Below are positions 26,708 through 40,963 of a stretch of DNA of 64,000 bases, one piece after another; within the stretch, counting starts at the first letter, position 1, and every line of letters begins with the position of its first letter. The DNA lies in NCBI RefSeq assembly GCF_003013815.1, contig NZ_PRLH01000185.1, forward strand, positions 1 to 64,000, read 5' to 3'. Position numbers and translations under genes: made by a program. The notes below the pieces were generated by a model. The model saw only the letters and a list, made by a program, of their open reading frames with translations, was not told where the DNA came from and did not search any database. Source of the stretch: Cyanothece sp. BG0011 (GTDB lineage Bacteria; Cyanobacteriota; Cyanobacteriia; Cyanobacteriales; Microcystaceae).

Positions 26708-27670
26708 TTGGATGTCGAAGCTTTAATCTGGCAGTATGGTCAGGGAAAAAGAGATTTTAGTCGGTTAGACCTTCAGCGAATCGAGTTAATTCGAGAAAAG
26801 CTCATGGAGGTTAATTTTAGCCGAACAGCTTTAGATTGGGCAAATTTAAGTGGCACCGATTTAACTAAAGCGAACTTAAACCGTGCTGAGTTAGCTTATG
26901 GTCGCTTGATTAGTGCGACGTTAGTCAATGCTGATTTATCTGGGGCTAATCTCAGTCATGCTGACCTAAGTTGGGTCGATTTAGAAAATGCTAGTTTAGT
27001 TAGTGCTGATTTACATGGGGCGAATCTCAAACAAGTGAATCTCAGTGATGCTGATCTCAGGGGAGCTAATTTAAGTGAGGCGAACCTGACTGGGGCTATT
27101 TTGCATCGAGCGCAACTCAGTCGCGTCGATCTCAGTGGGGCCAATTTAACAGGGGTCGATCTCAGTGGGGCTAATTTAAGTCGTGCCGATCTCAGTGGAG
27201 CCGATCTTAGAGAAGTGGATTTAACCGACGCTAACCTTTATAAAGCGGATATCAGTGACAGCAAACTGCATAATATTGACCTTCAAGAAGCCTTTTTACA
27301 AAGAGCCGATTTTAGTCGCGCTAATTTAAAAGGAGCAAATTTAAGCGGAGCGGTTTTACGAGAAGTTAATCTTAACCTCGTGGCTTTATCTGAGTTTAAT
27401 TTGCGAGCCATTACCCTAGCCGGTGAAACAGATTTAAGTGCGGCTAATTTGCAAAACGCCAACTTGAAAGGGGCAATTTTACGTCATGCTAATTTAGGCT
27501 ATGGGTTGCTTTATCGAACCCTATTAAACGATAGTCTTTTACGGGGCGCGAATTTAATCGATGCCTCTTTTCGAGGGGGCGATTTTCGTAATGCTAATTT
27601 TCGTAATAGTAATATTAGTAATATTAATTTAACTGAAGCGACTATGCCTGACGGTAGTATTCATCCTTAA
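26708..27670 (+). CDS. Pentapeptide-repeat protein
   Basis: A 320-residue protein almost entirely of A(D/N)LxX pentapeptide repeats from about residue 25 to 310 (ANLSG, TDLTK, ANLNR, ADLSG, ANLSH, ADLSW and many more), forming a right-handed quadrilateral beta helix. The opening MDVEALIWQYGQGKRDFSRLDLQRIELIREKLMEVNF is a helical cap. The start is TTG at 26708, right after a HIP1 octamer. No signal peptide is seen, so it is probably cytoplasmic. The function is unknown; some such proteins protect DNA gyrase, others regulate photosynthesis or glycolipid deposition. It has no operon partner: leuD is 108 bases upstream. Confidence 0.88.
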   Translation: MDVEALIWQYGQGKRDFSRLDLQRIELIREKLMEVNFSRTALDWANLSGTDLTKANLNRAELAYGRLISATLVNADLSGANLSHADLSWVDLENASLVSADLHGANLKQVNLSDADLRGANLSEANLTGAILHRAQLSRVDLSGANLTGVDLSGANLSRADLSGADLREVDLTDANLYKADISDSKLHNIDLQEAFLQRADFSRANLKGANLSGAVLREVNLNLVALSEFNLRAITLAGETDLSAANLQNANLKGAILRHANLGYGLLYRTLLNDSLLRGANLIDASFRGGDFRNANFRNSNISNINLTEATMPDGSIHP

Positions 27671-27897: not shown

Positions 27898-27971
27898 GGA
27901 CGTATAGCTCAGTTGGTTAGAGTACATCGTTGACATCGATGGGGTCACTGGTTCGAGTCCAGTTACGTCCA
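27898..27971 (+). tRNA. tRNA-Val (GAC)
   Basis: The 74-nt cloverleaf has an acceptor stem GGACGTA/TACGTCC, a D-arm GCTC...GAG(T), an anticodon stem CATCG/CGATG with loop TTGACAT (anticodon GAC at 27932-27934), a T-arm ACTGG/CCAGT with TTCGAGT, and discriminator A. CCA is not encoded. This valine tRNA gene is the landmark next to the Tn7-like element: the target duplication begins 27 bases after its last base. An antisense open frame covering it is a well-known kind of artefact. Confidence 0.95.
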
Positions 27972-27997: not shown

Positions 27998-28002
27998 AAC
28001 TA
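27998..28002. repeat. Left target-site duplication AACTA of the Tn7-like element
   Basis: AACTA directly precedes the left TGTGAC end. The same five bases follow the right end at 37913-37917. Tn7 and its relatives create 5-bp duplications, so this marks a simple, complete insertion. Confidence 0.93.
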
Positions 28003-28079
28003 TGTGACTTTACCCATAACTTTGCCGTTTTGGTAAGGTTATCGTTCAAAACACAAGTGGCAAGATTATGGTTCAAAAC
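28003..28079. promoter_or_regulatory. Left end: terminal inverted repeat and presumed TnsB-binding repeats
   Basis: The terminal site is 28003-28026 (read on the minus strand as GGCAAAGTTATGGGTAAAGTCACA with the motif GGCAAAGTTAT). Two more copies at 28032-28052 (GGTAAGGTTATCGTTCAAAAC) and 28059-28079 (GGCAAGATTATGGTTCAAAAC) run on the plus strand. The second overlaps the stop codon of the TnsD C-terminal frame. The two internal copies face the other way from the terminal one. Confidence 0.75.
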
Positions 28080-28398
28080 CTAAGTCCCGTTTAGTTTGCT
28101 TGAACACTTCACGAACTTGAGGGTAACGAAGAAAGCTAGGGTGAGTCAAAAACTCAGCCACACGAGATTCAGAAGGATACTTACCGTCAGCATACAATGA
28201 ATAAGTGACGGTGCGAACTTCTTGACAACATTTATTAATGGTTTCATGCTGAATCGTTTTTAATCTTTGGCGGTATTTCGCAGAAATCCCTTGACATAAA
28301 TCTGGGAAATGTCGAGATAAAGTCCGACGATGATAGCCTAATGTCTCTGAAACCTGCTTAAGAGAAGGACTTTCTACATCAGGTAAATTCAAAACTTC
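28066..28398 (-). pseudogene. C-terminal part of TniQ/TnsD, separated by an in-frame TGA
   Basis: About 110 codons continuing the tniQ frame after TGA (28401-28399): the first codons are GAA GTT TTG, then NLPDVESPSLKQVSETLGYHRRTLSRHFPDLCQGISAKYRQRLK. This is the helix-turn-helix tail common in TnsD-like proteins of cyanobacteria, which binds the target attachment site. It is open in the same frame as the upstream gene and stops at 28066. A TTG at 28392 could start a separate 108-residue protein. A single C-to-T change of a CGA codon would explain the stop. It is more likely the broken end of one 490-residue TnsD than a separate gene, but a split protein cannot be excluded. Confidence 0.75.
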
Positions 28399-29448
28399 TC
28401 ATAGTTGCTGTTGTAAAAGCTTTAAGTTTAGCTGACGAGGAGATTGACGGATAAGAGACTGTTGTTTTGGGAGTTGACGGGCTGAAACCGTCTCTAAATG
28501 GCTTTGGCTTATTTTTTCTGTCAACAAGGTAAGCAACGGTAAATCCAGACACTCACTAATTTTTAACAGAGAAGCAAGTGGGGGTAAAGATTTCCGATGA
28601 TACCATCCCCAAACTGTATTTTTGGGAAGATTTAACTGTTTAGCAAAAGCACTAATATTACCTTGAGTAACCCCGTTGATAATCGCTGAAACATTATTCC
28701 ATAAGTTATCTTGGGTAGGATTATGGGGTAAAATAGGCATAATCTCAATTAATGAGGCTAGAGACTCAGATAAAGCGATATTGCCCCCTAACTCATCTTG
28801 ATTCAGATGAGTTGATATGGTTTTGGTAGGAGAAAATAACAATTGATGACAATGAGAACAACAACCATTAGAAGATTTCCAAGTCAACCAAGGCTGTTTA
28901 TTCCCACAATGAGGGCAATTTTCCCATAATCTGAGACCATGATGTGGACAAACTTTCACTGCTTCGAGTGACCATAACAAAGGTTCATAAAGAACATGAT
29001 GGGATTGCCATTGTTGCTGATAACATAGAGGACACCAAACCTTATGATTTCCTAATAAGCCTTTGTGAGAAAGAATATTAGACCAAACGGACAAAGTTAA
29101 AAACGACAAATCTTTCCGTAAAGTTAAATATTCTAATGCTTGAACAAAATCTTTTGCTAAATCTCCATGACCCTGTAAAGCTCTAGCTTTTTGAAATAAT
29201 GCGCCTAAACTGCGACTTGACGAATTTTTTAAAAATGTAGTGCGAAGACAAGGAGAAATTAGGCGAGAAATAAACACGGATAAGGATAAACAATGTAGTT
29301 CAGATAAGCGAATCAAATAACTGCTCAAACTTTCGCAATAAGGTGTACCAATTCCTATCGGTTTTAAAGAAAATAAACGACTCTGAAGAGGAATTTCAGG
29401 TTTCTTGAGATCCCACCGTTCATAAACTGTTAAATCATCAACTGACAT
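28399..29448 (-). CDS. tniQ: TniQ/TnsD target-selection protein (N-terminal part, truncated by TGA)
   Basis: Target selector of Tn7-type transposition. From ATG 29448 (MSVDDLTVYERWDL) the product has about 349 residues; it overlaps the tnsC stop by 11 bases, fitting translational coupling, while the longer open frame to 29553 overlaps tnsC by 116. The TniQ domain (SLKPIGIGTPYCESLSSYLIRLSELHCLSLS) is followed by zinc-binding motifs CPLC, CPHHGLRL, CPHC and CCSHC at mid-protein, then a helix-turn-helix (AKQLNLPKNTVWGWYHRKSLPP). The frame ends in TGA after LKLLQQQL, and the remaining TnsD-like domain follows without a shift at 28066-28398. Whether the truncated protein still selects tRNA-Val is unknown. 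Confidence 0.85.
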   Translation of the reverse strand: MSVDDLTVYERWDLKKPEIPLQSRLFSLKPIGIGTPYCESLSSYLIRLSELHCLSLSVFISRLISPCLRTTFLKNSSSRSLGALFQKARALQGHGDLAKDFVQALEYLTLRKDLSFLTLSVWSNILSHKGLLGNHKVWCPLCYQQQWQSHHVLYEPLLWSLEAVKVCPHHGLRLWENCPHCGNKQPWLTWKSSNGCCSHCHQLLFSPTKTISTHLNQDELGGNIALSESLASLIEIMPILPHNPTQDNLWNNVSAIINGVTQGNISAFAKQLNLPKNTVWGWYHRKSLPPLASLLKISECLDLPLLTLLTEKISQSHLETVSARQLPKQQSLIRQSPRQLNLKLLQQQL

Positions 29449-30580
29449 CAGGTTCTTGGACTCCAATTTTGTCTCGTTTTGGGTTTCTTTTTCCGACTTT
29501 TGTTTTTCTTTTAGAAGACTGACCTTTTTTTTGCTGTTCAGTAACGTCTTCACCTAAACCTAATAAGGTTCGTAAATTTTGGGCATCGGCTTCTGTTTCC
29601 GATAATTGCCTTTCCCCTTCAAGAATTTCTGCAAACATTCGTTGACATTGAGCCACTGATAAAGCTCTACGTTGAAGTTGTTTGAGAGTTATAGTATTTG
29701 AATTTTCATCTAACGCATCTTTGAGGGTACGAGTTAACCAGTTTTTCAATGTACCGATACACCCTAAAGATCGTTCGTAAAAATATTCCCAATGACTCAC
29801 TAAATCAGGTTCTTGAGCTAAGGGCATTTGACGTTGAAATGTTAATAAAACACTTTTAAATGCTTGAATATCATCAGGATTATCGACTTGATAGCGAGGA
29901 AAATGAATATCAACACTACGTCTTGATAATTGACCACTTAAATTCCGAAAAGTCAATAATTCATAGGTTCCTAATAAGCAGTGAAGAATAGTGGTCATAT
30001 TAGCCAAAGATTTAAGACAATCTAATTGGTCTTGTAATTTATGCCCACTCGACATTTTTCCCATGTGTTGAGCTTCATCAATAAAAAATACATCGGGTTT
30101 ACGATGACTCAAGCTATTTTCTAAAGCTCGTCTCAAGGCAGGTGCAACAACTTTCGGTTCAATGACAACATGACCAAAAATATCCCGATAAACTCCTCGC
30201 ACTCCATAATCAATCTTGTGTTCAATCAAAGGTTCTTCAAGGGCAATCAAAGCACGGGTATAATAGTCTTTCCAGTTGAAATTCCGTGATTCTGGGGCAA
30301 CTGCCTCAATGCCAACAACTGGGATGCGACCCCTATCAATGGTCAACTCAGGTAAGCAAGCTTCAATGATTTTTTGCTCGACTCGCTGTTTGAGAGTGGT
30401 TTTCCCCACTCCACTGGGGCCATAAACAAATATAAAAGATGCACCGGCTGGTTCATTGATTGTTCGCATCAAAGCTTCGTAAACTTGCTTGAGGCGAGGA
30501 TGTGCAACGGTAAACCCTTCAAAATAATCCAACTTTTCAACAACGGATTTTTCGAGAAGTTCTGGGGGAAAATAACTCAT
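29438..30580 (-). CDS. tnsC: TnsC-type AAA+ ATPase
   Basis: Regulator ATPase of Tn7-like transposition that forms rings or filaments on target DNA and links the target selector to the transposase. The 380-residue protein has Walker A GPSGVGKT at residues 54-61, Walker B PDVFFIDEAQHMGK near 155-168, sensor and arginine regions (CLLGTYELLTFRNLSGQLSRRSVDIHFPRY) and a C-terminal basic tail (KGQSSKRKTKVGKRNPKRDK). Start ATG 30580 lies three bases from the tnsAB stop at 30584, and the tail overlaps the start of tniQ. No alternative start is needed. Confidence 0.93.
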   Translation of the reverse strand: MSYFPPELLEKSVVEKLDYFEGFTVAHPRLKQVYEALMRTINEPAGASFIFVYGPSGVGKTTLKQRVEQKIIEACLPELTIDRGRIPVVGIEAVAPESRNFNWKDYYTRALIALEEPLIEHKIDYGVRGVYRDIFGHVVIEPKVVAPALRRALENSLSHRKPDVFFIDEAQHMGKMSSGHKLQDQLDCLKSLANMTTILHCLLGTYELLTFRNLSGQLSRRSVDIHFPRYQVDNPDDIQAFKSVLLTFQRQMPLAQEPDLVSHWEYFYERSLGCIGTLKNWLTRTLKDALDENSNTITLKQLQRRALSVAQCQRMFAEILEGERQLSETEADAQNLRTLLGLGEDVTEQQKKGQSSKRKTKVGKRNPKRDKIGVQEPDVS

Positions 30581-30583
30581 ACT

Positions 30584-33283
30584 TTAGAACTCCTCATAAA
30601 TTTCAAGGTTATCGGGTAATGTGTCTTCTGCAATAGAAGAGGTGGTATCAGTTAGGGTAGAACTAGCGACATCAGTGGCAATAGATGAAAATATAGGATT
30701 TTGATTAGCGTGACCCCCATTAATGACCTGAAAAACGTCCTTAGCTTCCATATCCCGTTGTCTTTGCTGTAAAAGAACTTCTTCTGCTTGAACAGAGGTT
30801 AAAAACTCAGCCAATTTTTTTGCAGATACTTTGGATTTTTTTTGATGATTGGAAAACCGTTTGATTAATTCTTTGGTAGCTAACTTGATTTCTTTCTCAG
30901 AACGTCCTTGAAAATCTGCAAAATACTGAGATGTACACTTCACCCAAAACCCTCGGACATAAGCATAGGCAATACCTGCATCAAAGGGGTCATAACGGAT
31001 GGGAACGTAGGTTTTTTCAATTTCAGGGTCTCGGAAAATATTAGCCCAATAGTAGATATAGTTGATTTTGATGCCCATTGAAGGCTGTACCTTAGCCTTT
31101 CCTGTACTGGTGGTAGGAAGGGTCAAAATTTGAAAATTATCGTCGTAGGGAATGATTTTATGGTTTCTCGTTCCTCCTTGTATCATTCCCAAGGCAAAGG
31201 CTTCTCTAGGGCTTTGTCCTAATGCCGGATGATTTAACGTATCATAAACGTCATAAGCCCAAGCGCATAAGGTTTCATAGAGTCGTCCCAATGTCCAAAC
31301 AGCGTGTTTTTTGGGGTTTACCGACTTGGTAACTTGTCGAACATTTTTCATGATTTGGGTATTGCCCAACAAGTTATCAACAAATTGAGTATTGCTTGTG
31401 CCGAATAACCGTTCACACACTGCACCAAACCTTCCTTTGGCTGCAGGACGATGTTTCTTGGTACATTCAAAAGTGGCCAGCAAGGTTTCAAAGTAAACAC
31501 TGTGAAACTCAGCCCCATTATCAACCACGATAGTTTGAGGTAAACGTCCATTCCGCTGCACACAAAGACGTAAAGCCATTAAACAAGAGCGATAGGAAGG
31601 AGAATCAAAGGTCAGATAAACGGCCAATAATCGTCTAGAATAAGCATCAACTAGAAACGTTGCCCAAGGTCTACCTAAGTTTTGACTGGTTTGAGAGCAA
31701 ACTAATTCAACATCCAATTCTGTATGGTCAATATGAGCAATTTCTAGGGGACGACTACCATGTTTAGGAGTTGTTTTTTGTAATTCCCAATAAAAGGTTT
31801 CTTTGTTGTAAGCAGCCCTACGACCTTGCCTTTTTTTGGTTTGTTCGTAACTAGACCGTTTTTTGACTTCGAGGGTAAAGGTTTTATAACTGGGGACAAT
31901 GAGTCCCTTTTGTTCACAAGCTTTTAATAATGAGCAATAAACCGACCACATCCGTTTCTGTTTCAGGGTTTCATAGTCATTGGTAATAAACTCATTCATT
32001 AAATCAAGGGATGCTTGGGGAAGTTTTCGACTTCGATTTCCTTTTTTTTGACGATGAGACAATAACCCTACATACCCACACCCATATTTTTGTTGGGCAT
32101 TTAGATATTTAGCTTTCCAGTCTCGAATGGTTCTAGCTGAAGTGGTTTCATTTTCTCGTTTTTCTCCCCGTAAATAGGGTTCAATGACTTGATAACGGCG
32201 TAATGCTTCAGATTGGTCTTCTGGACTAGCTTGATAGAATTGCTCCCAAGCTTCAGAATTAATTGAAGGGGTTTGAGGGGCTAAATAGGTTATTGTTCCT
32301 TGTTTGATTAATGCTTCGATTTCTTCAAGTTTGAGAACTATAAATTTTTCATCTTCATCCCGTAAAGTAATTTCGCTGTTGCCAATGTGTATGATATTGA
32401 CTGCTTTACTATCCCACAGTAAAGTTGTTCCAATGGTTAAATTAATGAGAGAAGACGGTAGCAAAGGTGATGAAGGAGACTGCTTCATCAAAATATAGGC
32501 TTTTGCTGTTTTAATATCGGGAAAAAGAGGACATTTATCGAGTTCTGTTAAAGAATATTGTTGAAGATTAATATAAAGTTGTTCAGTAGCAATTAAGGTA
32601 TAAATATCATCAGTTTTGATGGTTTCAGCTTTGGTTAATAGTTCTGTAATGGTGATTCCTGGTTGAGAAGTTACAATTTCAAGGATGATATTGGCTGTAG
32701 ATTCTGGAATAGTTAAATTTTCTGCTCGATAATAGTCTTCAAGAAATACTAAGTTGCCTTGAAGTATCCAATTAATTGAATTATCTGACCATAAATGATA
32801 ATTAAGTCCCAAAGATTGAGCATAATTTTCTCCTGGTGGACTTCGCCATTTTCCGTCAGTAAAAACATAGCGGTTAGGACTTTTTTGAGAGAGTTTTTTC
32901 AACTCACTCTCAGTTTTACATTCTTCCCAACCTGCACTATTACCTCTAATAACAAAATAGTCAGGGGTATGAACCACACCTAATTGACGACCATTTTTCC
33001 CCTGATAATTTAACTTAATGGGTGGGGGTTGGTCGTAATATTCGAGAACATCCTCATCATGTTCTAATTGGTAGATATGAGCTAATTCAACCTTATGAGA
33101 TTCAAATTGAATGGTAAACCCCATTTTTTGACTTGGGTAGCGTCCAGCAACATTTTTTCTTCCACCACCAACACGACGAGAAGGGTCTGATGAACGAATT
33201 TGTTCTATTAATTGTTGAGTTTGTTGGGGTAAGTTTAAATAGTTACACCATGCGATAAATTCAGATTGAGATAACATAAACAT
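30584..33283 (-). CDS. tnsAB: TnsA-TnsB fusion transposase
   Basis: An 899-residue fusion of the TnsA 5'-end nuclease and the TnsB transposase. TnsA part (residues about 1-240): restriction-type active site with VELAHIYQLEHDEDVLEYYDQP, D108 in HTPDYF and E121 and K123 in EECKTE. TnsB part: a DNA-binding region with helix-turn-helix (TSARTIRDWKAKYLNAQQKYG), then the RNase H-like core with D519 (HIDHTELD), D588 (VVDNGAEF) and E624 (AVCERLFG), and a C-terminal beta barrel. Both active sites look intact, so cut-and-paste activity is possible. A TnsA-TnsB fusion also occurs in some CRISPR-associated cyanobacterial Tn7 relatives. It follows the HTH gene after six bases. Confidence 0.95.
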   Translation of the reverse strand: MFMLSQSEFIAWCNYLNLPQQTQQLIEQIRSSDPSRRVGGGRKNVAGRYPSQKMGFTIQFESHKVELAHIYQLEHDEDVLEYYDQPPPIKLNYQGKNGRQLGVVHTPDYFVIRGNSAGWEECKTESELKKLSQKSPNRYVFTDGKWRSPPGENYAQSLGLNYHLWSDNSINWILQGNLVFLEDYYRAENLTIPESTANIILEIVTSQPGITITELLTKAETIKTDDIYTLIATEQLYINLQQYSLTELDKCPLFPDIKTAKAYILMKQSPSSPLLPSSLINLTIGTTLLWDSKAVNIIHIGNSEITLRDEDEKFIVLKLEEIEALIKQGTITYLAPQTPSINSEAWEQFYQASPEDQSEALRRYQVIEPYLRGEKRENETTSARTIRDWKAKYLNAQQKYGCGYVGLLSHRQKKGNRSRKLPQASLDLMNEFITNDYETLKQKRMWSVYCSLLKACEQKGLIVPSYKTFTLEVKKRSSYEQTKKRQGRRAAYNKETFYWELQKTTPKHGSRPLEIAHIDHTELDVELVCSQTSQNLGRPWATFLVDAYSRRLLAVYLTFDSPSYRSCLMALRLCVQRNGRLPQTIVVDNGAEFHSVYFETLLATFECTKKHRPAAKGRFGAVCERLFGTSNTQFVDNLLGNTQIMKNVRQVTKSVNPKKHAVWTLGRLYETLCAWAYDVYDTLNHPALGQSPREAFALGMIQGGTRNHKIIPYDDNFQILTLPTTSTGKAKVQPSMGIKINYIYYWANIFRDPEIEKTYVPIRYDPFDAGIAYAYVRGFWVKCTSQYFADFQGRSEKEIKLATKELIKRFSNHQKKSKVSAKKLAEFLTSVQAEEVLLQQRQRDMEAKDVFQVINGGHANQNPIFSSIATDVASSTLTDTTSSIAEDTLPDNLEIYEEF

Positions 33284-33289
33284 ATTCCT

Positions 33290-33946
33290 CTAATTCATCT
33301 CTTTGACTTCATCTTTAAGAGGAGAAAACAACCAATTTCTACCTTCTTTCTTTTCACTTTTTTGCCATGCAATTCCATCAGGATCTCGCTTTTGTGACCA
33401 TTCAGGGAATTTTTTACCTTTTTTTGAAATAGCATTTGAGACTGACTGAGGCTGAAGTCCTAATCGTTTCGCTAATTCAGATGAGGTTAGACGCATTTGC
33501 TCGACATTTTCTGAAGATAAAGACACACGGTTAGATATCTCCTCAGAATCTTTAGTAGTCTGTTCTGAAGAGTTACTTTCTGGTGATTTAGAGGTAGATG
33601 AATCATCTATTACAATTGATTCAGATATCTCAGGAGAGTCTTGATTATCTGTCTTTAAATCCGAATTAGTAGATTCAACCTCTAATTCTTTAGTTGTTTC
33701 TTCCCCTAGTTGTGCGGAATTGTTAGGCTGTAAAAGTTTGCCATTCTCGTTAGACTTGTTAGATAAGATTTCTTGAACAATTTTGGATGAAGTTTCTTCA
33801 GATGACTCCGTTAAATCAGATAACCCGCGCTGTAAATAGTCAATTAAAGTCTTAAGTTGTCCTCCTTGATAAAACTGAAGTAATTTATCGGCTGCTTTCT
33901 TCGGATTATCCATTCTTACGGACTTAGAACGGTCTTTAATCCCCAA
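33290..33946 (-). CDS. Helix-turn-helix protein upstream of tnsAB, 5' end uncertain
   Basis: From TTG 33946 a 218-residue protein: an N-terminal part LLQFYQGGQLKTLIDYLQRGL, a long Ser/Glu-rich acidic linker and a C-terminal helix-turn-helix (LTSSELAKRLGLQPQSVSNAISKKGKKFPEWSQKRDPDGIAWQ), a form seen in excisionase or replication-type regulators. The frame stays open for 134 more codons up to 34348, through the end of the helicase gene, with protein-like composition (SRQQQTTIRAANRAAEA, LDLKLISIDLAAKLGRDIKD, DEREYIENRDLIGYRIN) but contains no ATG, GTG or TTG. So the real protein is probably about 320 residues and begins with a non-standard start, a -1 shift from helicase, or has lost its start by an indel. 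Six bases separate it from tnsAB; it may act in transposition or regulate it. Confidence 0.7.
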   Translation of the reverse strand: MGIKDRSKSVRMDNPKKAADKLLQFYQGGQLKTLIDYLQRGLSDLTESSEETSSKIVQEILSNKSNENGKLLQPNNSAQLGEETTKELEVESTNSDLKTDNQDSPEISESIVIDDSSTSKSPESNSSEQTTKDSEEISNRVSLSSENVEQMRLTSSELAKRLGLQPQSVSNAISKKGKKFPEWSQKRDPDGIAWQKSEKKEGRNWLFSPLKDEVKEMN

Positions 33947-34269
33947 TAAATCCTTAACATAGCGATTGAGTTCCCGACCATAGGCAGGTTCTTTATACTC
34001 ATCTTCAGGAATTGGGCTAGAATAGATGTACTGATTAATGCGATATCCAATTAAATCTCGGTTTTCAATGTATTCCCGTTCATCTGCCGTTAAGTTATCA
34101 GGATCTTTGATATCTCGTCCTAATTTGGCAGCAAGATCTATGGAAATCAGCTTAAGGTCAAGTAACTCTCTAATAATCGGTATTGCTTCGGCTGCGCGGT
34201 TGGCTGCACGGATTGTTGTTTGTTGTTGTCTACTTAACTTCGACTGGTCACTAGGCGAAGTTGTTTCAG

Positions 34270-36144
34270 TTAAATCTGTTCGTTTTCCTTGACGAGATTC
34301 ATGGACAAGTGTTCTAAACTGCCATTGAAAGGAATACCATTTCTTTGTTTAGCAATGGTATGAACTTCTTTGAGATAGTCTTTTCTTTGTTTTCCTTCTG
34401 CTTCAGGATGTAAAATAAATACTAGATGGTTAACTTTTTTATTAACCTGTTTTCGAGCATAGCCAGCTTTTTTATCAGCCAGCCAAGTAGCATATTCAGA
34501 GGGGAAACCATCAGGAATTGGCTCATTAGTAGTTGAATCAAAAGGAGTTTCTGAATTGACCGCTTCTCGATACTTCTGATGAAAAATCTCAAAAAATGAG
34601 GGGTCACTCATGAATTTTTGAGCTAAATGGGCTGGTGTTTTATGCCAGTCTTGAAAAAAGGGATCATTTTCAATCACCCATTCAGCAACGTTTGCATATT
34701 CGGGGGAAATTTCATCACCATCAACAATTTGCGCTCCCATTTCTCCTGTCGAAGCAATAGGAATAAAATTAGTCGTTGAAGGTGTATCAGGTTCGCCATT
34801 TTCATCATCGTCACCTTCATTGTTATCATCCATTGGTTCTGGTTCGTCAACAACATGAGCAACTTTATTCATAACATCCATTGCTAATTCAATTAAAGTA
34901 GGATGGGCAGGAATTAAGGTTTCTACAGGTTCAGGAGAATCTTGAGTGGGAAAAAGACGTAATAAACGCCCTAAATCTTGCATAAACGATAAAGGAGCGC
35001 AAATATTAGTGGCATGAATCCGATATTTGAGGCGATTGATAGAAACCCCTTCTCCCAACATATTGACCCCAATAATCCAAGAACGTGCTGTCGGCCCTGT
35101 TTCTGCTGCAAAGGTTTCAATAAGTTGGCTTGAATCTTCTTTTGACCTAAAATTTGTACTCGAATTAGGATCATCATCCTCTCTTGAGACGACTACTAGC
35201 GCATCTTCTCCCGTCAGCGTTTTAATGCGGTTTTTCATGTCTCTTGCTGCTGGAATACTTGAGACTCGGACATAAGTAGCGCATTCGGGTATTCCCTTCA
35301 TACGGTCACGTTTCATGCGATTATGCGCCCATAAAATGGCTTCTTTAACCCAGTCACCATCGGGAAAAATGGCAGTATTTAGTGCATCCCTTAATTGCTG
35401 CTCATTGGTTGCATTGGTAAAAGTTCGCCCTTCATAAGTTGCTTCGTTGCGAATGTATTTAAACTCTCCTTCTAAGGTGACAAAAACAAATAAAGGAATA
35501 ATTTTATCTTGCCGAGCATCAGCTAAGGTATAACGAAAATCAGGCTGGCATTCATAGGCATTATCGTCAATTTGGTCGTAGGTTAACCAATTCCCCAAAA
35601 TTCTGTTGTTATCAGAACGAAAAGGAGTACCAGAGGTCATTAAACGATGAGCTACTACATCATCTCGAAACGCTGTCTCACAAGCTTGTCCAAAGGAAAG
35701 TTTATCGCTGGCATGATGAACTTCGTCAAGAATTACAAAGACTTTACCTTTCCAGTTTCTTTGTAGATCGTTAGCCAAATTTTGAGCATTTTCACGTTTC
35801 GTTAACCATTGATAACTAATGACGATACCTTGGTAGTTCTCTCCTGATAGCTGTTTTGTGTTAGGTAATCCTTTTGACCTATTATCAGTTCCAGAATGAT
35901 AAAGATTTAAGCCAAAAAGCCGATGTGCATCTTGAGCATACTGTTTTCTTAGATGTTCTGATGGTGTGACAACAACAAGGAAGTCCCAATCGAGGGTACT
36001 TCTTAGTGAAACAAAGGTGTACAATGCCCCACCTGTTTTTCCTGCTGCGGTACAACCTTCAAGTAGTGTATTTTTTTGTGGATTAGCTTGATATTCCCTT
36101 ACAAACCGTGCTTGCCAGTCTCTGGGATTGAACTGATTACTCAT
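34270..36144 (-). CDS. SF2 DEAD/DEAH helicase of type III restriction-like family
   Basis: A 624-residue superfamily 2 helicase. Motif I is GCTAAGKT (residues 30-37), motif II DEVHH (140-144), motif III TSGTPFR (170-176); the second RecA domain has motif V-like GVNMLGEGVSIN and motif VI QDLGRLLRLF. An acidic insert EPMDDNNEGDDDENGE lies between residues about 430 and 450. This family includes type III restriction and Brr2-like helicases; no nuclease domain is visible, so restriction is not supported. It heads the operon that runs through the HTH gene into tnsAB-tnsC-tniQ. Divergent from the RHH gene across 100 bases with tandem operator-like repeats. Role unknown: DNA unwinding at the transposon ends or target, or defence cargo. 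Confidence 0.85.
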   Translation of the reverse strand: MSNQFNPRDWQARFVREYQANPQKNTLLEGCTAAGKTGGALYTFVSLRSTLDWDFLVVVTPSEHLRKQYAQDAHRLFGLNLYHSGTDNRSKGLPNTKQLSGENYQGIVISYQWLTKRENAQNLANDLQRNWKGKVFVILDEVHHASDKLSFGQACETAFRDDVVAHRLMTSGTPFRSDNNRILGNWLTYDQIDDNAYECQPDFRYTLADARQDKIIPLFVFVTLEGEFKYIRNEATYEGRTFTNATNEQQLRDALNTAIFPDGDWVKEAILWAHNRMKRDRMKGIPECATYVRVSSIPAARDMKNRIKTLTGEDALVVVSREDDDPNSSTNFRSKEDSSQLIETFAAETGPTARSWIIGVNMLGEGVSINRLKYRIHATNICAPLSFMQDLGRLLRLFPTQDSPEPVETLIPAHPTLIELAMDVMNKVAHVVDEPEPMDDNNEGDDDENGEPDTPSTTNFIPIASTGEMGAQIVDGDEISPEYANVAEWVIENDPFFQDWHKTPAHLAQKFMSDPSFFEIFHQKYREAVNSETPFDSTTNEPIPDGFPSEYATWLADKKAGYARKQVNKKVNHLVFILHPEAEGKQRKDYLKEVHTIAKQRNGIPFNGSLEHLSMNLVKENEQI

Positions 36145-36200
36145 AAATTAAACCTCCGATGTTAAAATTTGGGTAGTGTGTAGATCATTGGAAACTCAGA

Positions 36201-36228
36201 TGTATCTCTCGTATCTCAAGTGTAGCTC
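36201..36228. promoter_or_regulatory. Tandem operator-like repeats
   Basis: TGTATCTC (36201-36208), GTATCTC (36211-36217) and TGTAGCTC (36221-36228) recur at a spacing of about ten bases in the divergent region between the helicase operon and the RHH gene. Ribbon-helix-helix proteins commonly bind tandem repeats with helical spacing. So the RHH protein probably represses its own gene and the transposition operon; this is inferred. Confidence 0.5.
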
Positions 36229-36245
36229 ATTTGAATATCATTAGC

Positions 36246-36557
36246 ATGGCAAGAACCAGTAAAGATAAAACAATTTCCATTCGACTGTCTCAAACCATGT
36301 TGGAGGCACTAGATGCCCGTGCTGTCTTGGATGAAAAAGACAGAGCGCAGGTGATACGAGAAGCAATAGCAAAACATTTAGAGATAAACGACGAAGAGTT
36401 TGAAGAAAAAATTAATTCTTTAGAAAAAACCGTTGATAAGCTTCAAACTGAATATCAAAAGGACAGGAAGAAAACTGAAGCGTTAGGTAAACGGGTCGAT
36501 GAAATGAGTCGCCTAGTCACCTATTGCATCGAACGCTTACCATCGAACAAAACTTAA
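36246..36557 (+). CDS. Ribbon-helix-helix (CopG-like) transcription regulator
   Basis: A 103-residue protein from ATG 36246 (MARTSKDKTISIRL); TTG 36231 would add five residues. The N-terminal RHH fold has the beta strand KTISIRLSQTM followed by helix EALDARAVLDEKDRAQVIREAIAKHLE, and a C-terminal coiled coil (FEEKINSLEKTVDKLQTEYQKDRKKTEALGKRVDEMSRLV) that may dimerise it. It resembles CopG/MetJ-type regulators found on plasmids and other mobile DNA. It is divergent from the helicase operon and near tandem repeats, so it is probably the regulator of transposition or of cargo. No obvious toxin partner. Confidence 0.8.
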   Translation: MARTSKDKTISIRLSQTMLEALDARAVLDEKDRAQVIREAIAKHLEINDEEFEEKINSLEKTVDKLQTEYQKDRKKTEALGKRVDEMSRLVTYCIERLPSNKT

Positions 36558-36592
36558 AAGCATTCCGATTTATTACCGAAACGCTTTGATTA

Positions 36593-37333
36593 TTAAGCTA
36601 ATGCTCGTTTAACTTTGTTTCCTGCTTCATCACAGCTTTGTAAGCACTGCTTATAGCCTTGACGTTGATTTTCTTCGATATCCTCTTCAGCTAAAGCTTC
36701 TGCTAATCCTAAAGCTGCAACTTTCACTCTTGAAAGGTTATCTCTTAAATTGGCACTTTTTGCCAGTCCCATTGTTTGCTTTAATTCTTTAGAGGTTCCA
36801 CCCAAAACCTGCTTATTAATAGCATTAGTACAATTAGCGTAATGGAAAGGTTTGGACGCACCATGCTCTTGCAATGTGCTGGTAAACTGATGGCGAACTT
36901 GCTTATTCTCTAATCGAGTTTGAATCCATTTATCGGTTTTGCCTTGACGCTTCCAGTTTTTAACGGCTCGGTCAACTCCCTTTTCGGGATCAACTTCTTC
37001 CTCTACATAGCGTTTTGCCCATTCATTTACCTGAATATGAAGATTAGGGTCAAGATACTTTGCGTAAGCTAAGGCTACTTGCCAATGTCCCCACGTACCT
37101 CCATTGCGTCCACGCACTGTTTTTAAAATGTCGTTTGTAGCGACATTTAATTTTTTTTCTAGTGCCAACAGAAATAAAGCAGATCCATCTGTTTCTGTCC
37201 ACCGTCAAGGATCTCTATTTTTTGGGCTGTTAGCAGCTTTCCAAAGTTGAGTTAGACTAACTAAGTTATTAGTTGGGTCAACAGAAATAAGTGTATCTTG
37301 GTACTTTAAGGCAATTAAGTTATTGCTTTTCAT
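36593..37333 (-). pseudogene. KilA-N domain protein with in-frame TGA
   Basis: From ATG 37333 the frame reads 42 codons (MKSNNLIALKYQDTLISVDP, LTQLWKAANSPKNRDP), then TGA at 37207-37205, then 204 codons in the same frame to 36593 (RWTETDGSALFLLALEKKLN, TVRGRNGGTWGHWQVALAYAKYLDP). The two halves join in a KilA-N DNA-binding domain; the expected codon at the TGA is probably CGA (Arg), a single C-to-T change. Alternatively TTG 37168 begins a 191-residue product lacking the first half. KilA-N proteins are typical of phages and mobile elements. The C-terminal part (TMGLAKSANLRDNLSRVKVAALGLAEALAEEDIEENQ) is helical and of unknown function. The gene is the last one before the right end of the Tn7-like element. 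Confidence 0.8.
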
Positions 37334-37758
37334 TTTTTCAATCAATACCGAATAAGATGATGTAGCGAGGTAAATATTCAACTTTACTCAACGTTAAATC
37401 TAAGTAAAGTCGAGATGTTAATTGTAAAACAAAATTTTTTTAAGCTATTTGATAGGATAACCCAAAAAACAAAAAAATAGCAAGCTCTTCGTCTATTTTT
37501 TTCTTAATAATTGGTTAATCAAGTTTCAACACATAATTCAGACAGACTCAGATTTGCTCTATAGCTACTAAGCACTACATATAGTGTATTTAAAATCTTA
37601 TCTACTCAATAGGTAGTGTTCACTAAAATTCTAGTCACATAATTTTTATAGTTCAAAAATACTAAAAAATTGATCTTTACTGATTTTTAGTAAATTAATT
37701 TCAGTAATTTTTATTGTTAAAGTTTGCAATTTTATAATCAAACTAAACAAATACTGGT
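37334..37758. other. AT-rich noncoding stretch before the right-end repeats
   Basis: No credible gene in about 425 bases on either strand. It is extremely AT-rich. Scattered weak copies of the motif (A)GTTCAAAAAT and TTATAATCAAAC look like degenerate end repeats. I searched it by eye for CRISPR repeats, a crRNA-like spacer matching tRNA-Val, or a tracr-like RNA and found none. Confidence 0.6.
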
Positions 37759-37912
37759 GGCAAGTTTATTATTCAAAAATCCACTCTCGGCAAAATTATG
37801 GTTCAAAGTACACAAGAACTGTAGCAATACTTCAACGATATAATTAGGTTAATAGCTACAGTAACGGCAAGATTATGATTCAATTTGTGGCAAACTTATA
37901 GGTAAAGTCACA
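37759..37912. promoter_or_regulatory. Right end: four presumed TnsB-binding repeats and terminal inverted repeat
   Basis: Copies of GGCAAgwTTATkrTTCAAA at 37759-37779, 37789-37809, 37866-37886 and the terminal one at 37889-37912, all in the same orientation and spaced irregularly. The terminal copy ends GGTAAAGTCACA and is followed directly by the AACTA duplication. Tn7 right ends likewise carry several TnsB sites, while the left end has fewer. Confidence 0.75.
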
Positions 37913-37917
37913 AACTA
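37913..37917. repeat. Right target-site duplication AACTA of the Tn7-like element
   Basis: AACTA follows the right end exactly, pairing with 27998-28002. Removing one copy and the element would give the continuous ancestral sequence from tRNA-Val into the promoter region of the 992-codon gene. Confidence 0.93.
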
Positions 37918-37984: not shown

Positions 37985-40963
37985 ATGAAAAGTATTGTTA
38001 ATCAAATCAAAGATATAGTTATTTTTGACAAACAAAGATTAATTTACGGTTTAATTATCATTTTTAGTCTCTTGATAGCTGATTGGATGGGATTATTAAA
38101 AATTAGTACAATGTTGTTTGAGTTAAACGGGTTACAATACCCGAATTTTTATGGTCATATTAATTCATTTTTGATAGACAAAGTTACCTTATTAGATAAC
38201 CTTAGAAAATTTGTTCCACAAAAAGACTTTTTATCAGATATTATTGCTGTACAAGCTGCGATTATTTCCATTGCTATACCTATTAGTTTTGATGTTATTT
38301 CTAGAATATCTGAGAGATATAAATCATCAGTCATAATTAACCAATTTAATCAACAGTGGCAAGTTAAAGTCTTACCGTTACTACTTATCTTTAATATTGC
38401 TTTATCGGTTTGCTTGAAATTTTTTATAACAAATGATCCCAAATCCTTACTAGAAATTATTCTTATATATTTAGCTTTCTTTTGCTTCTTAGGAATTTTA
38501 GGGATATTAGGGTTATTTTTTCAAACTGTTAAAAAGTATTCAGTTGATACATCATATTTACTTAATCAGATTTATAAAAATATAGAAAACAATCTTAATA
38601 TTGAGAAGTTACTGAAAATCAAAGATAATAAACAACTAGAAACTATACAAAATAAATTAATTGAATCTTTTGAAGCTATTGGAGATATTTTAGTGGTTGA
38701 AGTTAGTGAGAAAAAAGCTAATAATACTATTTTAAAAGGTTTCCAAAAAATCCAAGATTCAATTATTATAATTTTCAAAGTTAAAGATAAAAACCCAGAA
38801 CTTTTTGAGCGTTTAGTGGTTTCTTCAGATTTTCATAAGTTAACTCAAAACAATAAAGTAAATATTTCATATCAACTTTCATTTAATTCAGACAATGTAT
38901 TAATAACTTTAACGACAGCAATCAACCAATTTATCAGAATTCATGAAACTGCGGTTAATTGTAACAATGGTGAAATTAGCTGTTATAGTGTTGATAATGT
39001 TATAGATATTCTGAAAGAAATAACCATTAGTTCTAAGAACGATATAATTGTTAGAAAATTGCTCAAAGATTTAACTAATATGAGTAGTTTTTCAATCAAA
39101 ACTAAAGATTATTCTGCTTATATTGCTTCTATTCAATGGTACACAAATATAGTATTTGATTTAAACAATCAATTTGATTTGTCATATCTTGCTATTTTTG
39201 ATGAGTATTTTTGGTTAAATATTAAATATATAATAACCTATGATAACAGGGAAGTTTTTGAAGGTTTAGTTTCTACAGTAACACAAGGAATAACTGCATC
39301 TATTAGTTCACCAAGTACAAATATAAGGGATTATTTTAGACCTTACATTTATAAATTAAAAAGAAGAGATGATGAAATAATAAATAGTATTTCAAGGTTA
39401 CATTCACAAGTGTATAATATTTATAGCCAAGATCAGCTTAATACTTGGATTAATGAATTTAATAAATTAAAGAATATTGTTGATGCAAAGCTTCACGATA
39501 TAGAGAATGAAGAAAATAGAGATAATATTAAATCTAATATAAGTTCACATTCAACTATTATCAAAGACTTAACTAAAGAGTTGAAATACAAAAATTTACA
39601 GGTAATTATTTTTTATGCCGCAGCTTATTGTATTTTCAAAAAACAATTTGGTTATATTAAAAATCTATGGAATTTTAATCAACCTCCAGATTCAGATGCG
39701 ATATGGGTTAACCGTAATATTGTCTCATCAGGACTTGAAAAAATCATTGACTTCTACTCGAAGAGTAATCTGATTCAACGAAGATATTGGTGGGATAATC
39801 ATCATGGAAGTGGAATTTATATTAAAAAATATTTTTTGCTTTTACTAATAAGAGAATTCTATAAAATTGATCCAAATAATTATCAATTAACTGTTCAAAA
39901 ATTTAATCTATCTAATGATTTTGATTCTTATGATTTGTTTATAATAAAGGATTGGACTGATGATTATATGAAAGTAGCTGAAGAAATCAAACAGGATAAT
40001 AACTTATTTAGAAGTTTAGAATTTGACTTAGATAAGGTATCTGAATCTATCGATAATGGTGTTATTCCTTTTTTAAAAGAATTAAAAACTAAAGCAGAAA
40101 AAAGCATTATTGTCTTGAAAAGAAAACAGAAAATTAGTTCAAATAAAGTTCAAAACTTTAAAAATGGTGTTTATCAAGGATTTTCAGAATTATCTTATGT
40201 TAGAGAAATCTTTGAATATTTTAATTTATATGATGATAAAAATAATCAACCTGTATCCGAAACGGACTATGGATGTCCTAATCAACTATTTCCTAAAGAG
40301 TGTTTTTTTGATAATTGGTATTCTACATCATCAGACTCTGGTAATTATGCAGGTAAGAATTTTGGAAGACAAATAGCAATTTATGAAAACAAAAAAATTA
40401 TTCAACAAATTTCAGAATATTGTGAAAGAATTTCTCAAAATCCATTAGAAACTATTTTTAATGACCTAAATAATCAGATACAAGATATTTTTATTATTGC
40501 TTCTTTCCAAGCTATAGATAATTGGCGTAATCATCAACAGTTTAACGATGATTATAATTATTGTCCTGATTTTCAACCCCTGCTATTAAAAAGTTTTCAA
40601 GGATATTACTTATATAAAGAGCATGAAATACCTGTTTTCTTTATCAACTCTGAAATCATAGATAATAATATATTAGTTTTGAATAAGTTTCGATTAGGAA
40701 CTTTACAACAATATCTATATAATAAACCCGAAGATTTGGAAAACCCTAAACAATTTCAAATAGAGATAAAAGCTTTTTCAGAAGATACTGAATTACTAAA
40801 TAATTGTCTTGATAATCCTTTTAAGGGGTTACTAGAAAAAGGAACCAGAGACCAACAACAGGAGTATTTAGAACAATTCGTTGCTATTACAATTATTGAA
40901 AATTTTGAATTTGTAAAACATCCCGAATTTCAAGGATATATGATTCCTGTAGAAAATTTGTAA
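37985..40963 (+). CDS. Large membrane protein of unknown function
   Basis: A 992-residue protein I do not recognise. Membrane helices near residues 15-35 (LIYGLIIIFSLLIADWMGLL), 85-105 (IIAVQAAIISIAIPISFDVI), 125-145 and 155-180; the remaining roughly 800 residues are polar, helical and presumably cytoplasmic. No catalytic motif or known domain is apparent to me. The gene is very AT-rich with many Asn, Ile and Lys codons, unlike its housekeeping neighbours, and no HIP1 octamer was found in it. It starts 72 bases after the transposon end. It is followed within 34 bases by a Uma2 gene, and a fragment resembling its own C-terminus is at 41701-41769. It may be accessory or defence-related; that is only a guess from context. 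Confidence 0.75.
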   Translation: MKSIVNQIKDIVIFDKQRLIYGLIIIFSLLIADWMGLLKISTMLFELNGLQYPNFYGHINSFLIDKVTLLDNLRKFVPQKDFLSDIIAVQAAIISIAIPISFDVISRISERYKSSVIINQFNQQWQVKVLPLLLIFNIALSVCLKFFITNDPKSLLEIILIYLAFFCFLGILGILGLFFQTVKKYSVDTSYLLNQIYKNIENNLNIEKLLKIKDNKQLETIQNKLIESFEAIGDILVVEVSEKKANNTILKGFQKIQDSIIIIFKVKDKNPELFERLVVSSDFHKLTQNNKVNISYQLSFNSDNVLITLTTAINQFIRIHETAVNCNNGEISCYSVDNVIDILKEITISSKNDIIVRKLLKDLTNMSSFSIKTKDYSAYIASIQWYTNIVFDLNNQFDLSYLAIFDEYFWLNIKYIITYDNREVFEGLVSTVTQGITASISSPSTNIRDYFRPYIYKLKRRDDEIINSISRLHSQVYNIYSQDQLNTWINEFNKLKNIVDAKLHDIENEENRDNIKSNISSHSTIIKDLTKELKYKNLQVIIFYAAAYCIFKKQFGYIKNLWNFNQPPDSDAIWVNRNIVSSGLEKIIDFYSKSNLIQRRYWWDNHHGSGIYIKKYFLLLLIREFYKIDPNNYQLTVQKFNLSNDFDSYDLFIIKDWTDDYMKVAEEIKQDNNLFRSLEFDLDKVSESIDNGVIPFLKELKTKAEKSIIVLKRKQKISSNKVQNFKNGVYQGFSELSYVREIFEYFNLYDDKNNQPVSETDYGCPNQLFPKECFFDNWYSTSSDSGNYAGKNFGRQIAIYENKKIIQQISEYCERISQNPLETIFNDLNNQIQDIFIIASFQAIDNWRNHQQFNDDYNYCPDFQPLLLKSFQGYYLYKEHEIPVFFINSEIIDNNILVLNKFRLGTLQQYLYNKPEDLENPKQFQIEIKAFSEDTELLNNCLDNPFKGLLEKGTRDQQQEYLEQFVAITIIENFEFVKHPEFQGYMIPVENL

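Follow-up and report, generated by a model that had tools for sequence, protein, structure and literature searches.

Does a helicase gene that stands upstream of the transposase genes of a Tn7-like element, joined to them through a helix-turn-helix (HTH) gene, belong to the transposition machinery, or does it have work of its own? The locus that raises this question lies in a window of 64 kb, the whole stretch of DNA that we analysed (positions 1 to 64,000 of contig NZ_PRLH01000185.1 of Cyanothece sp. BG0011). The window contains a complete Tn7-like element of 9,910 bp (28003-37912). Reading from its left end, tnsD, tnsC, tnsAB, an HTH frame and a helicase gene of superfamily 2 (SF2) all lie on the minus strand, followed by a divergent gene for a ribbon-helix-helix (RHH) regulator and a broken KilA-N gene. 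An earlier note on this DNA had listed the five minus-strand genes in the order helicase, HTH, tnsAB, tnsC, tniQ, which our analysis confirmed, and had raised the possibility that the first two are part of a Tn7 core. Comparison with relatives established, at the level of sequence, the layout of this helicase-HTH cassette, its recurrence, its tight spacing, a repeat array, purifying selection and its exchange as a block. We tentatively read the element as a compact Tn7-like transposon from a cyanobacterial lineage whose hallmark is a regulated helicase-HTH cassette within the tns operon, with the cassette a self-contained unit that would act in its own right.

Layout and recurrence of the helicase-HTH cassette

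The intact arrangement was seen in related genomes, for which we use handles such as G369 (and L052 for a locus). The elements of G369 (L052, 8061-17362; 9,302 bp) and G675 (L145, 8752-17912; 9,161 bp) are both 96% coding and contain RHH, helicase, HTH, tnsAB, tnsC and tnsD genes, with no further gene seen. A 4-nt overlap joins the helicase gene to the HTH gene in G369, G675 and G234; in G310, G044 and plasmid p1 of Planktothrix agardhii the two abut (1 nt). The distance from HTH to tnsAB is 8 to 30 nt in G369, G675, G310, G234 and G024. To describe the two genes as "not apart as cargo" was thus a fair reading, since intact copies are operon-like and two elements carry only the RHH gene besides. 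We found the RHH gene at 14 loci and the right end of the element beside it at 12 of these; the interval between them lacks any open reading frame (ORF) of at least 90 amino acids (aa) in eight cases and holds KilA-N in three.

The window copy is decaying: its helicase-HTH junction is lost and its tnsD contains a stop codon. The helicase gene (34270-36144, minus strand; 624 aa) matches the Pfam families ResIII and DEAD (4e-10 and 1.8e-8) and has lost its last 30 to 40 residues or so. Of the parts of a type III restriction enzyme only this domain was found, the cassette having no match to a methylase or nuclease family. The HTH gene is a remnant, an open frame (33290-34348, minus strand) that reaches back into the helicase gene and has no ATG, GTG or TTG upstream of 33946. 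The HTH ORF as listed (33290-33946) begins with a TTG codon, 323 nt past the helicase stop (34270). Relative to G310 the window lacks 494 nt, and relative to the P. agardhii plasmid cassette 472 nt, both times split into two gaps within 34329-34348; the alignment with G675, a more distant relative, has its gaps spread over several pieces. The 323-nt gap therefore exists because the window copy lost about 470 to 495 nt at the junction, and this deletion truncated both genes. The HTH protein has lost its N-terminal 125 to 130 residues or so relative to intact homologues of 437 to 493 aa, and given the length of these homologues we rejected a genuine short HTH gene starting at 33946.

The earlier note had also described gaps of a few bases throughout the operon. 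This held for HTH-tnsAB (6 nt), for tnsAB-tnsC (3 nt) and for tnsC and tniQ, which overlap, but not for the helicase-HTH junction of the window. All tns genes lie on the minus strand. The tnsAB fusion (30584-33283, 899 aa) matches the Pfam families rve (slightly below the curated cut-off), TnsA C-terminal and Mu-transpos_C, and its product has relatives at 65 to 67% identity. The AAA+ gene tnsC (29438-30580, 380 aa) matches AAA_22 (9.5e-15) and TniB (1.3e-8). The TniQ-domain part of TnsD (28399-29553, 384 aa; TniQ, 2.9e-16) is followed in the same frame by an ORF of 108 aa for its C-terminal part (28066-28392; PADLOC TniQ_IB, 2.4e-4). An in-frame TGA at 28399-28401 splits this TnsD of about 495 aa (28066-29553) after its first 384 codons; the same TGA is present in both copies of the element in this genome, and TnsD is uninterrupted (495 aa) in G369. 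The element thus has a TnsA/TnsB-type transposase, a TnsC ATPase and a TniQ/TnsD target selector, the last interrupted here, as in Tn7-like elements.

A CRISPR-associated transposon (CAST) was considered and rejected because neither cas genes nor a CRISPR array was found in the element. No cas family was among the Pfam matches of its eight ORFs of at least 100 aa, no tandem array was found within it, no regularly spaced family occurred among 20 of the at least 60 repeat families, and Rfam gave no match within it. No TnsE family was among the Pfam matches of the element genes or of intact cassette genes.

Our TnsAB search covered 388 genomes of the order, of which 133 matched at an E value of 0.001. 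Nine loci had full-length TnsAB of at least 65% identity, partial matches being excluded. The HTH gene lies directly upstream of tnsAB in four of these best loci (the window, G369, G024 and G076). In the other five (G301, G373, G383, G021 and G358) tnsAB, tnsC and tnsD have the same order, with no RHH, helicase or HTH gene nearby. The cassette is therefore not obligatory, and we rejected the helicase as an obligatory Tn7 core gene, since it is missing from five of nine close, collinear relatives. These five loci are of the kind that the earlier note had named as refuting its suggestion, and an obligatory core role is not supported; in addition, three loci keep the cassette intact without working tns genes beside it. 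In four sister elements that lack the cassette, the place upstream of tnsAB is taken by a small gene of XRE type and a second, short gene of the TniQ family; the latter encodes 329 to 335 aa and is divergent from tnsAB (L056, 8713-10042; equivalents in L057, L058 and L059). Pfam was run on the pair of G373 only. In G301 a D12 methylase gene and further genes lie upstream of tnsAB instead of the cassette.

A helicase search of the same 388 genomes matched 29, of which 14 genomes (15 loci) at 45% identity or more were kept. The 15 excluded comprised 14 at 25 to 35% identity, G285 among them, and G319, with a match of 21 residues; G593 (34% helicase identity) is also left out of the counts. The 217 genomes of the family of G369 added the helicase loci of G675, G764 and G781, and a plasmid collection added that of P. 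agardhii p1; none at this identity came from 386 phylum-wide genomes or from 61 genomes of another family. Tn7 ends or tns genes were found at 15 of the 19 loci, the exceptions being G044, p1, G349 and G379 (the last two fragments). An HTH gene of this family was counted in 12 loci, including a 39-residue piece in G295 and leaving aside the HTH fragments of G319 and the second copy of the Cyanothece genome itself. In 10 of these 12, all but G044 and p1, tnsAB or a remnant of it follows, and the recurrence of the two genes upstream of tnsAB that the earlier note asked for was thus found. Five host families (f1, f33, f2, f24 and f5) show the order helicase-HTH-tnsAB, a recurrence beyond chance; seven keep the RHH-helicase pair with its repeat array, and the decayed elements of G764, G781, G187 and G295 retain parts of this order in pieces. 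No other cargo was seen to be equally kept across five host families, but five of nine close relatives lack the set. As a separate observation, a deletion in G764 has fused helicase and HTH in frame into one ORF of 958 aa (L146, 8784-11660).

The cassette also occurs apart from the transposition genes. Intact RHH, helicase and HTH genes without tns genes are present in G044, whose whole assembly has no TnsAB match, and on the plasmid p1; G310 has an intact cassette with tnsAB cut after about 62 aa. The window shows the opposite case, with tnsAB and tnsC intact and the cassette damaged. At the DNA level the cassettes of G369 and G675 are about 70% identical and their tnsAB-tnsC-tnsD segments about 90%, the jump falling at the HTH/tnsAB border. 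Synonymous divergence (dS) is 1.24 to 1.66 for the cassette and 0.29 to 0.50 for the tns genes, from which it follows that the cassette was exchanged in one piece. We rejected fast protein evolution as the cause of the difference because the synonymous divergence differs too. The ratio of nonsynonymous to synonymous divergence in the cassette (0.13 to 0.21) indicates purifying selection. Two subclades within a supported clade of 12 rows bear the cassette in the TnsAB tree, a distribution that needs three changes, two of them forced by well-supported branches. The simplest reading, though not proven, would be a cassette in the ancestor followed by two losses. The plasmid cassette falls together with the Tn7-linked helicases of the window and G343 in the helicase tree (95/95), whose root is unsure and whose outgroup branch is very long; resolution in the HTH tree is poor.

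Control region and relatives of the encoded proteins

The RHH gene (36231-36557, plus strand; CopG type, Pfam RHH_1, 5.8e-5) is divergent from the helicase operon and directly precedes it, and of the 14 loci in which the start of the helicase gene is present, 13 have such a gene beside them. The region between the two genes (36145-36230) carries repeats like TGAGATAC, mostly 11 bp apart, and is presumably the operator and promoter of both RHH and helicase-HTH-tns. Direct repeats of this type lie between RHH and helicase in all 12 loci examined, at least two in each and often 11 bp apart; the gap between the genes was 86 to 101 nt in the five loci measured. With at most one mismatch, TGAGATAC gave 36 matches over the 12 loci compared with 1.8 expected from shuffles, a count that is partly circular because the consensus was picked by eye from the very loci scored. 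A scan of the whole window is less so, and there the RHH-helicase gap was the only same-strand cluster of three within 100 nt; in the window no second cluster was found upstream of tnsAB or at the ends. An RHH-fold gene thus stands beside an iterated short, putative operator. From the tight intact junctions, the cargo-free elements of G369 and G675 and the repeats in 12 of 12 loci, we conclude that the cassette is lineage-specific and probably operonic, not random cargo. The RHH protein would bind the TGAGATAC array and repress a single promoter for helicase, HTH and the full set of tns genes; cassette and transposase would then be made together.

The helicase motifs GKT, DExHH, TPFRSD and QxxGR were invariant in nine aligned proteins. 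Two of these, the distant homologues of G285 and G593, carry an N-terminal HNH nuclease (9.5e-15 and 1.2e-8), which is absent from the other seven; the Tn7-linked form starts at the helicase domain. In G285 (L092, 7812-10497) the HNH-helicase gene overlaps the gene of a partner of 215 aa with similarity to parts of the HTH protein. In G593 (L148, 8251-11649) it directly follows a DNA methylase gene, and the two are likely an uncharacterised restriction-modification pair. We saw no tns genes around G285 (20 kb) or G593. The HNH domain, the HTH-like partner and the methylase neighbour, along with a match of the helicase to the defence protein PbeA, indicate a restriction-like kinship. The HNH domain may have been lost in the Tn7-linked helicase, but this is not proven.

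The HTH protein has an N-terminal domain, also present in the G285 partner, a central domain and a C-terminal HTH. Pfam, PHROGs and NCBIfam assigned no convincing domain to the intact proteins in their N-terminal or central regions, and sequence searches of the PDB gave nothing useful. Partial counterparts of the HTH protein are encoded by plasmids and by a viral contig. On the latter (L132, 8001-8708) we noted a protein of 235 aa that is 75% identical to the central part over about 106 residues; the scan found no relative of the helicase on viral contigs.

Possible functions of the cassette

In the reading that we tentatively favour, the helicase would be kin of restriction-type HNH-helicase proteins without the nuclease, and the HTH protein would load it on DNA. 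The pair would stand outside the strand-transfer chemistry and would most likely form a non-cutting DNA translocase, directed against incoming or competing DNA and co-expressed with transposition. The intact cassettes of G044, p1 and G310, which lack working tns genes, argue for a selected function of their own. The helicase might conceivably open target DNA or serve in end processing, as the earlier note had proposed.

Several observations weigh against a cassette with a function of its own. No nuclease was found in it, which is odd for a defence system, and the defence cargo of other Tn7-like elements is not normally known to lie in the tns operon; a position between repressor and tnsAB fits a role in transposition equally well. 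G044, p1 and G310 may have lost their tns genes only recently, in which case their cassettes may simply not yet have decayed. Moreover, the genome of G310 has two other TnsAB relatives (47%), which might act in trans, and the absence of a TnsAB match in p1 comes from a search of the p1 record alone, without a positive control. The best PADLOC match of the helicase was PbeA (7.4e-18), over the helicase domain only. Several plasmid homologues (Mycobacterium, Tsukamurella, Alteromonas) align only from the helicase domain on, so that HNH may be a gain elsewhere and not a loss here. As to the lineage, a right end alone was found beside the cassette in G343, G086 and G214, and TnsAB had no match in the assemblies of G343 and G214. 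Not every element is free of cargo, since G234 carries two ORFs (303 and 128 aa) in the interval from the right end to the RHH gene. The decayed locus of G349 keeps the helicase start without RHH, the sequences flanking the G369 element match only after a shift of one base, those of G675 do not match, and the repeats were scored on the loci that had supplied their consensus.

The helicase-HTH pair could instead be a transposition factor, a second target selector or activator comparable to TnsE or to Cascade/Cas12k, with TnsD serving the tRNA site. We regard this as rather unlikely, although several points speak for it: the genes are coupled, are probably in the same operon as tnsABCD and are the sole extra content of two cargo-free elements, and the same upstream place in the four sister elements holds the XRE-type and second short TniQ genes. 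No second TniQ was seen in the cassette-bearing elements, however. The distribution of HNH, present in the G285 and G593 homologues and not in Tn7-linked helicases, would suit such a factor, as would the exchange of the cassette as a block; yet the same exchange means that cassette and tns genes of G369 and G675 have separate histories, and the intact cassettes without working tns genes in G044, p1 and G310 stand against it. Likewise, the second copy in the Cyanothece genome lies at a non-tRNA site with an AAAAT duplication, but off-tRNA insertion may simply stem from the TGA-truncated TnsD of both copies. A parallel is offered by type V-K CASTs, in which, as passages of PMC9938897 describe, RHH repressors (Arc_1/Arc_2) lie reversed upstream of the selector gene cas12k, as RHH does here. 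A more specific form of this proposal, which we hold to be doubtful, is that an HNH-helicase system disarmed of its nuclease and brought under repressor control in the tns operon now directs or activates insertion beside the TnsD-tRNA pathway, for example into mobile or replicating DNA. It would then be a second instance, this time free of CRISPR, of restriction or defence machinery converted into a transposition module.

Alternatively, an RHH-regulated cassette of plasmid or phage origin may have landed once upstream of tnsAB as ordinary cargo with no functional link, the tns genes being transcribed by read-through from the cassette promoter or from an undetected internal one. The cassette on a plasmid without tns genes, the partial likenesses of the HTH protein on plasmids and a viral contig, and the D12 methylase gene with its neighbours in the same place in G301 are consistent with this. 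Such a passenger is nonetheless improbable in view of the order kept in five host families and the RHH-helicase-array unit kept in seven, with no other cargo seen to be equally kept, and of the plasmid cassette that falls within the window/G343 group of the helicase tree (95/95, root unsure). A mainly regulatory cassette, in which RHH and HTH govern the expression of tns while the helicase does no more than clear or remodel the ends of the element, seems very improbable: two DNA-binding, regulator-like proteins do flank the helicase, and the RHH gene adjoins the right end and a repeat array, but the window has no second repeat cluster upstream of tnsAB or at the ends, and a helicase of 640 aa would be costly for regulation alone.

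Tn7-like elements are known to recruit outside machinery for target choice. The nearest known systems share some traits with the one studied here. The tRNA-targeting Tn7-like elements and the type I-B2 and I-D CASTs of cyanobacteria share a TnsD-family protein and insertion beside tRNA genes; the window element differs in having RHH-helicase-HTH upstream of tnsAB and in that CRISPR-Cas genes and an array were not found. Passages of PMC11406308 describe tRNA attachment sites for I-B2 and I-D CASTs and a two-pathway lifestyle. The V-K CASTs, with Arc_1/Arc_2 or CvkR, share a small reversed repressor just upstream of the first gene, which here is an SF2 helicase gene and not cas12k; in addition, TnsA is present here, within the TnsAB fusion. 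Tn6022 with TnsF shares an extra gene operonic with tns genes, there with tniQ. In PMC10293859, a gene operonic with tniQ is taken as a sign of a new selector, and the survey of genes operonic with TniQ/TnsD names TnsF. TnsF is tyrosine-recombinase-like, and the TnsF section of that paper names nothing helicase-like; one of the two helicase mentions in the paper concerns Cas3. PMC8649781 covers cargo, and its one helicase passage concerns Gabija.

HNH-DEAD helicases (G285, G593 and, by alignment, those of Streptomyces plasmids and Saccharomonospora phage PIS 136) share the helicase core and the invariant motifs, but carry the N-terminal HNH nuclease that the Tn7-linked helicase lacks. PbeA, from a phosphorothioate-linked archaeal defence system, shares the helicase domain only, and the PADLOC scan gave no other Pbe or Dnd protein. 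We found no report of this cassette in the literature searched, which did not include the main cyanobacterial Tn7 survey, and do not claim that the cassette is unpublished. Elements of the G369/G675 type, with six genes in about 9.2 kb, offer a minimal natural system in which to ask whether such a cassette is selector, defence or passenger. A selector would be a protein-guided, helicase-based one, and a defence would be tied firmly to the expression of the transposase; if it proved true, a role in transposition would be the greater surprise. If these elements have an overlooked means of living or competing, the cassette is a good candidate for it.

Ends, insertion sites and neighbours of the element

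TGT...ACA ends and a 5-bp duplication are typical of the Tn7-like family, and both are present in the window element. The target-site duplication AACTA, as read from the sequence, lies at 27998-28002 on the left and, with the same five bases, at 37913-37917 on the right. The left end (28003-28078) has a terminal repeat of 24 nt (28003-28026) and TnsB-type sites at 28007, 28032 and 28059; the right end (37759-37912) has such sites at 37759, 37789 and 37866 and its terminal repeat at 37889-37912. The terminal inverted repeats, which begin TGTGACTTTACC, are 92% complementary, and the two ends hold five repeats of 20 nt of the GGCAAGATTATGGTTCAAAA type. A TnsB-site matrix, built from nine sites of which five came from these very ends, gave six matches at a strict threshold in the 64-kb window, every one at the element ends, and none on the shuffled window. 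Exact TGTGACTTTACC occurs four times in the genome, at both ends of the window copy and of a second copy.

The left end lies 31 bp downstream of a tRNA-Val (GAC) gene (27898-27971, plus strand; ARAGORN, Rfam RF00005), which is presumably the attachment site. In both G369 and G675 a group I intron lies 105 to 126 bp past the left end; in G369 we take it, from the sequence, to be in a tRNA-Leu gene, which ARAGORN did not report. The right flank gave a single 47-base match in eight other genomes of the genus and was otherwise absent, so an empty insertion site could not be shown.

The second, near-identical copy is spread over contigs C161 and C169 (L126/L089), with its middle part, including the helicase-HTH junction, unassembled. 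It is inserted at the stop codon of an ORF that we take to be comM-like, flanked by a separate 5-bp duplication, AAAAT; neither contig yielded a tRNA. In 2.2 kb at the right end the two copies show one base difference and one gap, and in 2.1 kb at the left two single-base gaps, both in tnsC. Their near-identity indicates that the element moved recently, with one of the two insertions away from a tRNA. The KilA-N gene (DinD-like; 36593-37381, minus strand), broken by a nonsense codon in the window, is intact in the second copy (262 aa).

Just past the right end, in a stretch of 25% G+C, we noted an ORF of 992 aa (37985-40963) with no Pfam or PADLOC match. Just upstream of tRNA-Val lies a gene (26708-27670) for what we take, from its translation, to be a long pentapeptide-repeat protein.

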